A stretch of DNA of 40,841 nt from Muribaculaceae bacterium (GTDB taxonomy: Bacteria; Bacteroidota; Bacteroidia; Bacteroidales; Muribaculaceae). The stretch covers positions 1 to 40,841 of the forward strand of contig JAGANS010000034.1 of NCBI GenBank assembly GCA_017624155.1, given 5' to 3'. The first letter of the stretch is position 1; each line of letters starts with the position of its first letter. The translations under genes were made by a program, and so were the position numbers. The notes under the pieces were generated by a model. It searched no databases. It saw nothing but the letters and a program-made list of their open reading frames with translations, and was not told the DNA's origin. Below, piece after piece: positions 144 through 40,841 of this stretch.

Positions 144-2624
144 ATGAAAAAAATTCTACTAATCCTCGCCCTGGCCCTCGCCACCGCCCTCCCCTCCGTG
201 GCGGAAAGCAAGTTTATAGGGCAGGAAGATACGAATGAATATAGTTTGCCTGTTGATTTGGGCGCTAAATGGTCGGCTTCACAGTCGCTTTATACGTCTT
301 CTGAACTGGATGGACTTTATGATGTCGCCAATAATAAAACAGCAAATATTACGGCTATAACCGGTTATGTTAATGTAGCAAATGCATATTGGCTATATAG
401 CGTGACGGAATGGGATGTTACTCTGTATATTAAAAATGTTGATGAAACTGCATTCACAATGCAAAACGGTAAGGCTGTCCCTGTTGAATTTATCACGGCG
501 GTAAGTGGTAAATTCAGTTTTAATGAAAGCCTTTTAGAGCAAGATGGTTATCTTGAAGCTATTGAGGGCTATAATGCAGCTTTACCTGTAAAAATTGTTC
601 TTGACGAGCCTTTGCAGTACAATGGGAAAAGCTTGCTGTTAACATGGATGTGCCATTTTGCAGATTATGATACAGATACTTGTAATAATGGCTGCATGTC
701 TTGGACTCCCGGTTCAGGTGTGCGTACCTTAATTTGGTGTAACAGTCGTCAAGAACTTACAGCCGATAAAATTCTTGCGGTAGGTTCTACGAATGACGAA
801 TTGTCAATTCTTCCTAATATTACAATCGAATATGAAATGGTAGATCTCCCAAGTGAATCTACAGTAGAGCGTTTGCCAGATACAGATTTTGCTGTGGGTC
901 CGTATGATGAGCCGGTTCGAGAGGATGCATCTTTATCGTGTAAAGATGTCTTGCCTGTTGCGATGTGTTATAAATACTCCGGATCGCAGACCCTGTATAC
1001 ACCTGTTCAACTTGATGGGATAACCAAAGTAGACCAAAGCGCTGAGATCTCATCGGTTTCTTTTAAACTTAATTTTGAAGAAGGTTTAATTAATGCCTTT
1101 GGCTCATTCAATGTTAAATGCTTTGTGAAAGTTTTAGACGATGTGTCAGCCTTCCCAAAAAACGCATCTGGCGATATGAAATGGTTTGAGTATTCCACAG
1201 ATGACGCTATGGGTGAGTTTGAACTTGACTCAAATCAGATTGAACCTGATTCAGAATGGGAATATGCTTACTCATGGGGCATGGGTGGACAGTTTGATAT
1301 TACATTGTCATTGAATAAACCGGTAGAGCTAAAATACGGCCAGTCGCTTTTGATTACATGGATAGCAGAAGTTCAGGACGTTGATGGAGAATGGACAAAT
1401 TCTACCGCATCGTTTGCGGTAGCAGGCAATGAAAAATTGGCAATGAGTATAGCTGATGACGGTAAGACATTTGAAAGCTACTACAATGCCGGTGAGACCA
1501 ATGCACAGTTGACTTATAACTATCTCCCCGTCCTCAAGCTCCACTATACACCGCTTGTATACAAGGATGCCGAGCCTAAGAATCAGGTAAGCTTTGAGTC
1601 GGTTGTTCCTATGGTGCGTCGTATGACAGTTGATCCGGCTATTAGCGAGTCAACCGAATATGGTGTCAGCGATTTCAAGAGAATAGATGCAGTTAACGGT
1701 GTTAGCCTTGCTTATACTATTAAGGACGAGCAGGCTGGTGAAGGCAAACAATATGAGATTTCGCTCAACAATGAACCCCTTGCAACTGTTTCCGAACTTT
1801 CAGGTATAATCAACTTTGTAGACCCCGCACCCAAACAGGATATGCGCCTCATGGTTACTCCTACCGATGCGAATTCGGTCGGTTTACCCACCACAGTGGC
1901 AAAGGCCGATATAGAGGCCCTTCTGCCGCAATATGAGGTATCGGTGGTGAAATCTAAATATTATATGACTGATGGTGAGGGGGATAAGAAAAATATTCAT
2001 GCCGCTGCTAAGTTCCAGTTTGGTGTGCCTGAAGATATAATGGCTTCGGTAACAGTATCATCACCGACAGTGGCTTCATCGCGAAAGCTTCTCCATAATG
2101 GCGACGTTGGTGATGAATACACTATTGATTTTGACCCTGAATTCCTGTCGCTTGATGCTGATAACTGGAGTTGTCTCCACCTTAATGACCGTTGCGTATC
2201 GTTCTTCTATCCCAACGTGATGGAGGGTTCGATGAATGGCGGTGAACTTGTAATTCCCAACAAATCATTTAGTTCATCGATTAATTCCACAGTGAAGTAT
2301 TCGTTGGCATGGGCTGCTAAACCTAAAATTGAAGAAGGTGTGGCCGTAACGTTTGCAAACGATTACGATGTAGACCTTGCACTTGCACGAGAGCTTTCCA
2401 TTAAGTCTGTCGAAAAGACAGCCTCTAACAGCGGTTATAATGGAGTAAGTTTTGTCCTTGATCCTCCGCAGGCATCCGACCTCTCGGGCATTGAGTCGGT
2501 TGAGGTTGACGGTAATGCAGCTGTCGAGTATTTCAACCTGCAGGGTGTGCGTGTAGAGAACCCGCAGAGCGGACTATTCATCCGTCGCCAGGGCAACAAA
2601 GCCGCCAAGGTTTATGTGAAGTAA
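144..2624 (+). CDS. Large secreted protein with duplicated domain and type IX-like C-terminal tail
   Basis: 826 aa. The N-terminus is a classic signal peptide (MKKILLILALALATALPSVA, residues 1-20). Two related domains follow: SQSLYTSSELDG near residue 46 and GKSLLLTWM near 161 are matched by SQTLYTPVQLDG near 280 and GQSLLITWI near 399, so an internal duplication of about 235 residues is visible. The rest looks like beta-rich extracellular modules. It ends in YFNLQGVRVENPQSGLFIRR plus a basic tail, the putative secretion signal. I recognise no catalytic motif; adhesin or surface protein is a guess. Codons of the signal peptide and of the tail are GC-rich, whereas the passenger from about base 205 is AT-richer, a mosaic that suggests passenger exchange between conserved ends. 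The tail shares a 16-base identical stretch with that of the preceding gene. Confidence 0.85.
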   Translation: MKKILLILALALATALPSVAESKFIGQEDTNEYSLPVDLGAKWSASQSLYTSSELDGLYDVANNKTANITAITGYVNVANAYWLYSVTEWDVTLYIKNVDETAFTMQNGKAVPVEFITAVSGKFSFNESLLEQDGYLEAIEGYNAALPVKIVLDEPLQYNGKSLLLTWMCHFADYDTDTCNNGCMSWTPGSGVRTLIWCNSRQELTADKILAVGSTNDELSILPNITIEYEMVDLPSESTVERLPDTDFAVGPYDEPVREDASLSCKDVLPVAMCYKYSGSQTLYTPVQLDGITKVDQSAEISSVSFKLNFEEGLINAFGSFNVKCFVKVLDDVSAFPKNASGDMKWFEYSTDDAMGEFELDSNQIEPDSEWEYAYSWGMGGQFDITLSLNKPVELKYGQSLLITWIAEVQDVDGEWTNSTASFAVAGNEKLAMSIADDGKTFESYYNAGETNAQLTYNYLPVLKLHYTPLVYKDAEPKNQVSFESVVPMVRRMTVDPAISESTEYGVSDFKRIDAVNGVSLAYTIKDEQAGEGKQYEISLNNEPLATVSELSGIINFVDPAPKQDMRLMVTPTDANSVGLPTTVAKADIEALLPQYEVSVVKSKYYMTDGEGDKKNIHAAAKFQFGVPEDIMASVTVSSPTVASSRKLLHNGDVGDEYTIDFDPEFLSLDADNWSCLHLNDRCVSFFYPNVMEGSMNGGELVIPNKSFSSSINSTVKYSLAWAAKPKIEEGVAVTFANDYDVDLALARELSIKSVEKTASNSGYNGVSFVLDPPQASDLSGIESVEVDGNAAVEYFNLQGVRVENPQSGLFIRRQGNKAAKVYVK

Positions 2625-2662
2625 CATATTTTTCTTCATAAGTCGGCCATAAGGCCTCTTCC

Positions 2663-2691
2663 GCGCCCTCCGGCATCCCGCCGGAGGGCGC
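2663..2691 (+). terminator. Hairpin after the secreted-protein pair
   Basis: A perfect 12-bp stem (2663-2674 with 2680-2691, GCGCCCTCCGGC) closes a 5-base loop 39 bases after the stop of the 826-aa gene. There is no clear T run after it, so it may be a transcript-end stabiliser rather than a strong intrinsic terminator. Confidence 0.55.
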
Positions 2692-2779
2692 TCTGCATTA
2701 ATGTGAGTGTTGAATGTTGAAAGTTGAATGTTGAAGTTGCAGTCCTTAAACCTTCAACCCAAACTCTCAACTCACCGGT

Positions 2780-2873
2780 GGCGTGCGAAGCTCGCCGATT
2801 TACTCGTAACCGGGCCCGTCGAGCCTCAAAGGCGAGACGTGCCCGGACAGTCATCCACTCACGTACCGGCGCC
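2780..2873 (+). repeat. Dispersed intergenic repeat, copy A
   Basis: About 94 bases that recur with few differences at 30145-30236 (starting GGCGTGCGAAGCTCGCCGAT and ending CACGTACCGGCGCC). Bases 2794-2811 reappear as an exact 18-base inverted copy at 2998-3015, so the element is partly palindromic. Spurious reading frames cross it in several frames; none has protein-like character. Confidence 0.85.
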
Positions 2874-2919
2874 CGTAGGCCGCCGATTTGAACCACGATG
2901 TCAATGCGCCGTTGCTATA

Positions 2920-3069
2920 ATCGGCGGCCTGGGGGCGCCTTTCAGGGATGGGGGCTTCTGTCCGCGTGCACCTGCGCCTGACGGCTCCGGTGAACGCGGT
3001 TACGAGTAAATCGGCGGCCTGCGGGCGCCTTTCATGAATGGGGCTTCTGTCCGCATGCACCTTCGCCCG
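2920..3069 (+). repeat. Two direct units of about 58 bases within the repeat-rich spacer
   Basis: Unit 1 (2920-2977) and unit 2 (3010-3066) both begin ATCGGCGGCCTG, continue GGGCGCCTTTCA, and carry GGGGCTTCTGTCCGC then GCACCT, with scattered substitutions and one single-base length difference. The spacing between unit starts is 90 bases. With copy A and the 18-base inverted repeat they fill the non-coding stretch 2625-3151. I see no credible gene in this stretch; short T/G-rich runs (TTGAATGTTGAA type) at 2706-2740 are mirrored by CTCAACCC runs near 3119-3140. Confidence 0.75.
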
Positions 3070-3151
3070 ACCGCTACGCGGCCTCGCCTCATGGATGGGT
3101 TACATCTTCGCTTCTAAACCCTCAACCCAAACCTCAACCATTCAAGATAGC

Positions 3152-3565
3152 CTAAAGCGGTTTGCGCTCGACGAGTTCGGTGAAAAGGCGGTCGAAGGTG
3201 GAGTCGAGGTCATCGGTATGGCCAGGGTGGGGGCGTGTGGTGGTGATGCAGGCGCTGCGCACGGCGGTGAGCCAGCGGAATCGTTCGTGTGCCTCGAGGC
3301 TGCCGATCGGGCCGGGGCAGCCGGCGGCCACACTCTCGAACGATGCGAGCTGCGCCGCAAGCAGCTTGGCGTCCCAGCCCGGAGCAAACAGAGCCATCAG
3401 CTCCCGGTCGATATAGATGCGCGCACGCAGCCAGCGCCGGCGCTTGCACATCATCACAAGGCCCACGTTGAGGCATTCCCCGCGCTCCACGCGGGGGCAG
3501 AACTGCACCACGGCATATTCATAGAGACAGGAGTTGCTTACGGGCTGCGATTGCATGGTCGACAA
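3152..3565 (-). CDS. DUF3037 family protein, partner of the HipA-like kinase
   Basis: 137 aa. The pattern YEYAVVQFCPRVERGECLNVGLV near the N-terminus is characteristic of DUF3037, a small family of unknown biochemical role usually encoded beside a short HipA-like kinase. That is the case here: its start lies inside the 3' end of the kinase gene (47-base overlap), so the two are translationally linked. An internal ATG at codon 4 is an alternative start and would still overlap. No catalytic residues can be named. Last gene of the minus-strand unit starting with the prenyl synthase at 5333. Confidence 0.8.
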   Translation of the reverse strand: MSTMQSQPVSNSCLYEYAVVQFCPRVERGECLNVGLVMMCKRRRWLRARIYIDRELMALFAPGWDAKLLAAQLASFESVAAGCPGPIGSLEAHERFRWLTAVRSACITTTRPHPGHTDDLDSTFDRLFTELVERKPL

Positions 3566-38591: not shown

Positions 38592-39656
38592 CTATAAATT
38601 CCAACGTATTATATAATATGACTCGTTATCGTTATTTATTTGATTGATAATGCCATATAAGCAACCATTATCTATGCAGAAATTCAAAAGATCGTTTGGT
38701 AATTGATAAACGGCAGATGGGATGCCCTCCCAGTCGGTCTTGATTAATTGCTGAGATAAGGTTATCGTTTCGTCTTTGTTCAAGTCCGCTCTGTTTTTTA
38801 TACGTTTAAGCCAACAGTCCTCGTTTGTCGCGAATCCGATGCTATATCGCCAAAATTCCTGGCCGGAAAAAATGTTTTCAATGGATTTGTTAATATCAAT
38901 AGACTCAGAGCCAAGAGAAACGCACCTTTTCAGATTTCCATTGAAGTCAAAAACATTATAGATGTCAAAATAATACATCGAGGAAATTATGCGATCTTTT
39001 TCTTCATTTGCGAATATGTTAGAGCTCATAAATGTCTGTAATCCTGCCCCAAGCATATTTATATTGTCTTCAGATAATTCAAATGGGAATTTTACATCAT
39101 GTGAGGAGTTTTCTGAGATATCATATATCATAAACATATTATCAGTGTTTCCTACTTTTGAAGCTACCATTTTATCACTGAAAAGGTTGATATATGCCAT
39201 TCCTCTCATGTATTTGGGTAAAGGCGTCTGGTTGATATTTCCGTCTGTGATATTTAAACGTAGCAGCTTGCCTGCATTCACATCGGTCATTATCAGTTCT
39301 TTACTATTGCTGACGATCGGATTGTTCAACATTCTCGGCATCAGCACGTCTTTTGGGCCGATTCCTACAAGCCCGATATTGAAGAGCGGTTTTCCGGATT
39401 TTTTATCAATAATGATGATTGCTGAGTCGCTATGAATCTTAGTAACTATAATGGCATCATCAATAACACGTAAAGCTACAGGATAGTCTTTCTTAAACTC
39501 AAAAATGGTATCAGGATTCTGAAGTATTAATTCGGTGATATTAGGATATTCTGAAATCCCTATATCGTCCAACGATATCTGCTTATTGTCGGATTCTCGT
39601 GCGCATTGGCAAAAGGCTATCAATGTTAAAATCGATATTAAAATTCTATTCCACAT
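38592..39656 (-). CDS. BF3164-like lipoprotein, third copy
   Basis: 354 aa, AT-rich. Signal peptide MWNRILISILTLIAFCQC with lipobox AFCQC. Propeller-like blades include AIIIIDKKSGKPLFNIGLVG, FMIYDISENSSHDVKF and NVFDFNGNLKRCVSLGSES; the early VGIGPKDVLMPR is like the 'GxGP' turn of the other two copies (GSGPSEM, LGGPDEF), which links the three genes. On the opposite strand to those, downstream of the NVEALA gene, from which it is separated by a 20-base inverted repeat. Function unknown. Confidence 0.78.
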   Translation of the reverse strand: MWNRILISILTLIAFCQCARESDNKQISLDDIGISEYPNITELILQNPDTIFEFKKDYPVALRVIDDAIIVTKIHSDSAIIIIDKKSGKPLFNIGLVGIGPKDVLMPRMLNNPIVSNSKELIMTDVNAGKLLRLNITDGNINQTPLPKYMRGMAYINLFSDKMVASKVGNTDNMFMIYDISENSSHDVKFPFELSEDNINMLGAGLQTFMSSNIFANEEKDRIISSMYYFDIYNVFDFNGNLKRCVSLGSESIDINKSIENIFSGQEFWRYSIGFATNEDCWLKRIKNRADLNKDETITLSQQLIKTDWEGIPSAVYQLPNDLLNFCIDNGCLYGIINQINNDNESYYIIRWNL

Positions 39657-39677
39657 CGCATAGATAATTTATTGTAT

Positions 39678-39764
39678 AATAACTATATATGTTGGCTAAA
39701 TTAATTGAGTCAGAATTTTGGTTCGGATCATTCGTAAATATAAAGCCAACATTATATAGTTATT
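39678..39764. repeat. Near-perfect inverted repeat flanking 48 bases
   Basis: Left arm 39678-39696 (AATAACTATATATGTTGGC) and right arm 39745-39764 (GCCAACATTATATAGTTATT) are reverse complements with a single extra base. It lies between the third lipoprotein gene and the NVEALA gene. No TAnnTTTG box sits inside. Confidence 0.8.
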
Positions 39765-39791
39765 AAAGAGGTTAATTATGATAGATTTCGT

Positions 39792-40089
39792 TTATTCACT
39801 ATCTCCGTCCGGGCAATAGGATGTGTGTATAATTATGCCGGGATAATGGGGCTCAACAGTGCATGGGTTACCGCAAACGACGGCGTCGGGGGAATTAATG
39901 TCATAATGCCCTGAGGTATAGCAAGGCGCACCTGGTCTAATCTTAAATTCAGAAGGATCCGCCAGTGCTTCGATGTTGGCGAGTGTCACGTTACTGACCT
40001 TCTCGCCCGGATGATGGCTTTGGACAGCGATATAGCTGCCGAGAGCCAGGATAGCCACCAGGGTGGCTGCAAAGATACGTTTTTTTCAT
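39792..40089 (-). CDS. NVEALA-family secreted peptide, frameshifted at an A7 tract
   Basis: The body encodes LGSYIAVQS-x-..-NVTLANIEALADP, the NVEALA processing motif, then a Cys-containing mature part (four Cys, e.g. GAPCYTSGHYD and VVCGNPCTVEP). As sequenced, the ATG at 40087-40089 is followed by seven A, which puts it out of frame and gives a 32-codon nonsense reading. With six A the protein would start MKKRIFAATLVAILALGSYI, a normal family leader of about 98 aa. So this is either a pseudogene, a phase-variable gene, or a sequencing error. A truncated GTG start at 40058 would lack the basic leader end. It sits 28 bases downstream of the DUF1573 gene. Confidence 0.75.
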
Positions 40090-40117: not shown

Positions 40118-40841
40118 TTATTTATTGAATCCGTAGACTTTGAGTCTTATCGGATTCTCTTTTTCATCGATGAAAACGTCAACATACCTGCTGAAACCGC
40201 CCGGGATACTGTCGCCGGTATAATATACAGCGATTACGGCTGTGGCGCCGGGTACAATGGAGTCGGCACGCACTATGGCACGGGTACAATCGCACGAAGG
40301 AACAGTACCTTGTATGTGATAGACATAATTGTCGGTATTGTTGAAATAGAAATTTGTCTTGACTGTGTGGCCTTTGGCCACAAGTCCGAGGTTATGTGAC
40401 AGACATTGCGCAGATGCGTCAGTGACGGTGGAAGGGGAGATGGTGTCGCCCCTGAGTATATTGAGATAAAGGTTCTTGATTTTAGGATTCATTACCGGGT
40501 TGCCTATGGCCAGTATATTGCAGTCGGCATCGAGCAGAAATGTGTGGAAGGACTCGCTCGAGGGCAGGGTATTGACTGTGGCGAATGTGCAGCTGCTGTC
40601 GACTGCCACTGCGTGTCTGAAATCATCGCGGCGGAGAGTGAAATCGAGTTTGTCGCGATCAAAGGAGTTGAGTATCATCAGGAAGTCAACATCGGCCACA
40701 GAGTTGAAAATGTCGATAGTCTCGGCCCATTCCGAAAGTTTCATTCGGCATGATGTGCAGCCGGCCGAGTCGATATATGTTATAACCGTAAAATCAGCGT
40801 TGGTCATCGTCCGGTCCACATTTTCTCCAAGGATGCTGAAA
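40118..40841 (-). CDS. Thioredoxin-like/DUF1573 protein (5' part beyond the window)
   Basis: At least 241 codons; the frame is open to the window edge, so the N-terminus is missing. The visible part begins with a thioredoxin-like domain with AGCTSCRMKLSEW (CxxC-type Cys pair) and a predicted LLDADCNILAIG strand, then a C-terminal DUF1573 beta-domain (HNLGLVAKGHTVKTNFYFNN, SCDCTRAIV, FIDEKENPIRLKVYG). This two-part layout is frequent in Bacteroidales next to NVEALA and propeller lipoproteins. Probably periplasmic or membrane-anchored; redox role is inference. Confidence 0.82.
   Translation of the reverse strand, partial: FSILGENVDRTMTNADFTVITYIDSAGCTSCRMKLSEWAETIDIFNSVADVDFLMILNSFDRDKLDFTLRRDDFRHAVAVDSSCTFATVNTLPSSESFHTFLLDADCNILAIGNPVMNPKIKNLYLNILRGDTISPSTVTDASAQCLSHNLGLVAKGHTVKTNFYFNNTDNYVYHIQGTVPSCDCTRAIVRADSIVPGATAVIAVYYTGDSIPGGFSRYVDVFIDEKENPIRLKVYGFNK

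Follow-up and report, generated by a model that had tools for sequence, protein, structure and literature searches.

The peptide gene at the end of this contig raises the question of whether a run of seven adenines directly after its start codon works as an on/off switch, or whether the gene is merely broken, or wrongly assembled, at that run. The window (the whole stretch of DNA analysed, 40,841 nucleotides) is contig C64 of a draft Muribaculaceae genome (2.44 Mb, 97 contigs, 87.83% complete, 0.82% contamination), and the run lies 752 bases from the contig end.

The peptide gene and its start codon

On the minus strand we read directly an ATG, seven A and then CGTATCTTT (Table 1). The NVEALA frame opens just past a TGA that overlaps this ATG and ends with TAA at 39794-39792; its translation contains LANIEALA and, in the tail, four cysteines. 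The first-pass annotation had described an NVEALA-family peptide gene with four Cys, its frame shifted by one base at an ATG followed by seven A and otherwise undamaged. The sequence and the translation of both frames confirmed the ATG, the run and the frame error, and the PF14055 match together with the Cys pattern bore out the family assignment. The remainder of the frame is undamaged as well, with 97 open codons and no second lesion. The marks of an old pseudogene, namely internal stops and lost family residues, were not found in the frame, which matches the profile and keeps its four Cys.

Table 1. Features of the locus, in window coordinates
Feature	Position	Strand	Basis
Upstream gene, CxxC motif (CTSCRMK) and C-terminal DUF1573, 5' end beyond contig	40118..40840	-	PF07610 6.1e-16
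Probable original start (ATG), NVEALA gene	40087..40089	-	sequence and motif distance
A7 tract at codons 2-3, site of the one-base frame error	40080..40086	-	sequence
Assembled ATG frame, stopping after 32 residues, without NVEALA motif	39991..40089	-	translation
NVEALA frame, 97 codons and stop, signal-peptide-like leader, NVEALA motif, four-Cys tail, no ATG	39792..40085	-	PF14055 profile
NIEALA (the NVEALA motif)	39960..39977	-	translation and motif offset
Strong hairpin between peptide and lipoprotein genes	39677..39765	-	13-nt perfect inverted repeat, fold z -5.19
Downstream lipoprotein-like gene	38592..39656	-	position as that of the 6-bladed propeller lipoproteins at other NVEALA loci

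An open frame of 97 codons alone is weak evidence of a gene; such a frame arose in 293 of 20,000 base shuffles. The PF14055 score just passes in a six-frame search (27.3 bits, cut-off 27), and it is only 24.4 bits when the GTG-initiated 88 aa are scanned. We took the gene as real because of the profile match and the Cys pattern, not the frame length alone, and on these sequence grounds we assign 39792-40085 to the NVEALA family (PF14055) as a true peptide gene. The window gene shares the tail pattern C[YW]..G.YD...P....VC.NPC with G142 (L072) and G183 (L074), and part of it with G124 (L075); these three belong to one other genus (g32) and all have in-frame starts. Two more NVEALA genes were found in the same genome, one on C95 (34.1 bits, above the cut-off) and one on C2 (25.1 bits, below it), both with in-frame ATG. 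The window gene departs from family membership at its start, where the ATG is off by one base.

For comparison, we assembled 77 distinct NVEALA genes from 27 genomes, through PF14055 searches of 397 family and 247 order genomes and an alignment search of 397 family genomes, plus the gene of L007; the two draws of 397 overlap in many genomes and are not additive. An in-frame ATG is present in 75 of the 77 genes. The distance from ATG to motif is 33-40 codons in 73 of them (72 by script, one by hand), where the script picked the ATG nearest 40 codons from the motif if there were several candidates; L110 and L138 have an in-frame ATG and failed the motif pattern. In the window, the ATG lies about 37 codons from the motif, inside the family range, and is therefore very probably the original start of the gene. 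The earliest start listed in the NVEALA frame itself is a GTG at 40058. One other gene lacks an in-frame ATG (G417:C88:39482-39685, L056 / L146), its leader being broken just after the ATG. That leader contains no long A run and differs from the intact sister L081 on the same contig.

Gene neighbourhood and occurrence in relatives

A lipoprotein gene follows the peptide gene (38592-39656), as is usual in the family. Its protein has no Pfam match, and it carries the invariant Cys and the near-invariant G.GP of 42 aligned downstream neighbours. The CxxC motif of the upstream gene is common to the upstream genes of other NVEALA loci; a search by sequence found no solved-structure relative of the upstream protein.

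For 47 of the 77 genes, chosen for longer flanks, the neighbourhood was compared by looking for a same-strand gene of at least 100 aa close by; order-level loci and short stretches were left out, and L072 stands for G142:C23. Such a neighbour occurs upstream at at least 28 and downstream at at least 42 of the 47 loci. These counts are lower bounds, because part of the loci are truncated and the test overlooked, at L046, an overlapping gene for a propeller-type lipoprotein. Among the 28 upstream proteins, 16 match DUF1573, five TolB_like, three Redoxin and one a competence family, and C..C.MK is present in 14. The 42 downstream proteins include 19 matches to TolB_like, 13 to DUF5128, four to DUF4934 and one to DUF4221 (multiple matches per protein are possible), and one Cys is common to all 42.

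Two loci were noted by eye. In L074 (G183) neither neighbour is adjacent, and a CxxC/DUF1573-type gene lies at 2358-3251, about 0.7 kb downstream of the NVEALA gene. In L072 (Isolate-104), near-identical ends of two DUF1573-like proteins, at 1-222 and 2922-3143 of L072 and seen in its ORF list, flank the NVEALA and lipoprotein genes, which suggests a duplication.

The G+C content of the window is 0.39-0.44 at 36-40 kb versus 0.51-0.62 over 2-36 kb. This low-G+C segment at the contig end (36000-40841, G+C measured to 40 kb) holds the lipoprotein and peptide genes. Considering the low G+C and the presence of these genes in few relatives, we suggest that it is an accessory, perhaps acquired, segment. 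The hairpin between the two genes was considered as a mobile element and rejected, because its genome matches were its own arms and chance-level pieces only, with no second full copy. An Rfam miRNA match of the hairpin (27.9 bits, gathering threshold 97) was judged to be chance.

The gene is rare among relatives. In a search of 61 genomes two matched, the window's own and G004, and the latter match was dropped as a homologue, being weak and in another kind of frame. A search of genome contigs with the NVEALA peptide found no relative, and a two-row alignment search of genome contigs found one, Muribaculaceae bacterium Isolate-104 (L072). No copy was found in viral contigs searched with an exact 26-mer, nor in the plasmids or the phages searched. 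A second genome of the same species did not turn up in any of these searches. Within the genus, NVEALA passes E 1e-4 in two of 49 genomes and the upstream protein passes 1e-20 in two of 49, the own genome being included in both counts. The other genome with the upstream protein is G010, which is the sole other one of the 49 with both genes; it has the same gene order and an intact peptide gene. At 39% identity, G010 is too distant for dating the frameshift.

The adenine tract among the starts of the genome and the family

An ATG followed by at least seven A was found at 35 sites in the genome, versus four for the reversed control pattern. All 35 were read individually, and their status as gene starts is the reader's judgement. 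Twenty-seven begin open frames of at least 109 residues and are in-frame starts of other genes; six were judged non-starts (L016, L021, L023, L025, L148, L149), one is ambiguous (L015) and the last is that of the window. Seven A at codons 2-3 is thus a normal start in this genome, and such runs are not generally misassembled. Compared with ordinary gene starts of this genome, the tract of the window is unremarkable. Within predicted genes of the window, four further 7-base A runs leave their frames open.

At the ambiguous site (L015; G000:C2, site 37000), a short gene with the in-frame ATG-A7 leader MKKTLAIITMLIMLNIAIFAQ stands directly before a lipoprotein-like gene, and a Cys-rich tail, CTNDCGAGEYSCCGPNGCGCIKIN, lies in another frame. 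It is possibly a second frame-broken peptide gene of this genome, or possibly chance.

Runs of A are also frequent in the family. In codons 2-5, at least six A in a row occur in 21 of the 75 in-frame NVEALA genes and at least seven in 12; directly after the ATG the numbers are eight and four of 75. Apart from the window gene, 12 NVEALA genes carry A7 or A8 in codons 2-5, and none of these is off frame. With the window gene included, 12 of 13 are in frame, for which free length drift gives a binomial P of 1.7e-5; this value overstates the case, because seven of the 12 share the leader MNKKMF, many being paralogues, and the genes are not independent. For runs of at least seven A directly after the ATG, the in-frame fraction is four of five (P 0.045, calculated by hand). 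The first-pass annotation had treated the position of the run at codons 2-3 as the mark of a switch. This claim found no support, since the same run stands at 27 other in-frame starts and the 12 family genes with such runs are all in frame.

Readings of the frameshift and known systems

Our best reading, held with a probability of about 0.5, is that a one-base slip recently made a null allele, either fixed or polymorphic, in a gene that has not decayed further. The A tract of the Lys-Lys leader would have changed in length by one base and put the start out of frame, and therefore the peptide would not be made from the A7 allele. The change is probably recent, because nothing else in the NVEALA gene has decayed. 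The tract itself may be an ordinary by-product of ATG-AAA-AAA leaders, mildly slippery and not built as a switch. The allele could have gone to fixation or be one variant at a polymorphic site, and reversion would be possible in principle. Judging from gene order only, the intact peptide would probably be exported by its signal peptide, the CxxC partner may handle its cysteines, and the surface lipoprotein may bind the product. Three points count against the null allele. The site lies close to a contig end in a draft genome. The absence of further decay is equally expected from a reversible switch, and passages of PMC2831843 argue that 5' poly(A) tracts are in general selected for reversible inactivation.

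Phase variation, in which the A tract would be a contingency locus toggling a secreted peptide through slipped-strand mispairing, we consider unlikely. A frame-shifting tract is indeed present within the 5' coding region, at codons 2-3 of a gene whose remainder is intact, and 5' poly(A) tracts of about this size do act as switches in some other bacteria, according to the passages of PMC2831843. The same passages report an excess, in coding genes, of poly(A) runs no longer than seven bases and place poly(A) runs near 5' ends, and they argue that this pattern serves reversible inactivation, which favours the switch. Against it stand the 27 other starts of the genome with the same tract, the 12 in-frame family genes and, among the rates quoted in that source, a lowest value of about 1e-7 for a tract of this size (six to seven A, Listeria). 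The same source gives 7e-6 and 3e-4 for Campylobacter (a tract of seven/eight T) and 1e-3 to below 1e-4 for Mycoplasma (seven/eight A), and slow and fast switching are therefore both on record (about 1e-7 to 1e-3). The fuller proposal is decidedly doubtful, namely that slippage turns on and off a secreted four-Cys peptide of a CxxC/DUF1573 - NVEALA - lipoprotein operon, with a gut population mixing producers and non-producers.

An assembly or consensus error, under which the real gene would be in frame and ordinary, is also rather unlikely. The incomplete draft in 97 contigs, the nearness of the site to the contig end and the in-frame ATG of 75 of 77 NVEALA genes all speak for such an error, but the 27 in-frame ATG-A7 starts elsewhere in the genome look correct and the four 7-base A runs of the window lie in open genes. 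As a whole, the sequence comparisons tend to favour an ordinary slip or an error of assembly over a switch.

It is very improbable that the A7 gene is still expressed, whether by transcriptional slippage or frameshifting on the slippery run (slippage rescue in Buchnera is mentioned in a passage of PMC2831843) or by initiation at the in-frame GTG, for this run stands in frame in 27 other genes, and the GTG lies only 27 residues before the motif, against measured ATG distances of 33-40, and would remove Lys-Lys-Arg.

If the null-allele reading is right and this is only a slip, the locus adds another broken copy of an accessory gene that is patchily distributed; if the switch were true, it would mean tract-based control of a secreted NVEALA peptide family. 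Of greater use is a side result, the recurring arrangement in which Cys-containing NVEALA peptides are preceded by a CxxC/DUF1573 gene and followed by a gene for a propeller-type lipoprotein. A literature search for the family name NVEALA gave no mention in the papers searched; matches for PF14055 were mostly malaria-parasite titles, which we took as gene-name collisions, and BF3164 was absent among the literature matches listed for propeller lipoproteins.

Compared with known systems, the window gene resembles the PF14055 family in its signal-peptide-like leader, NVEALA motif, Cys-containing variable tail and downstream lipoprotein gene, but as assembled it is without the in-frame ATG that nearly all compared members have. 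It resembles the 5' poly(A) phase variation treated in passages of PMC2831843, where a one-base change in a poly(A) run at the gene start truncates the product, whereas the window tract is known from one assembled length and the run is shared with the in-frame starts counted above. As in an ordinary recent homopolymer-frameshift pseudogene, a one-base frame error lies in an otherwise intact gene; unlike the ordinary pseudogene, the window gene is without a second lesion and has not yet decayed.
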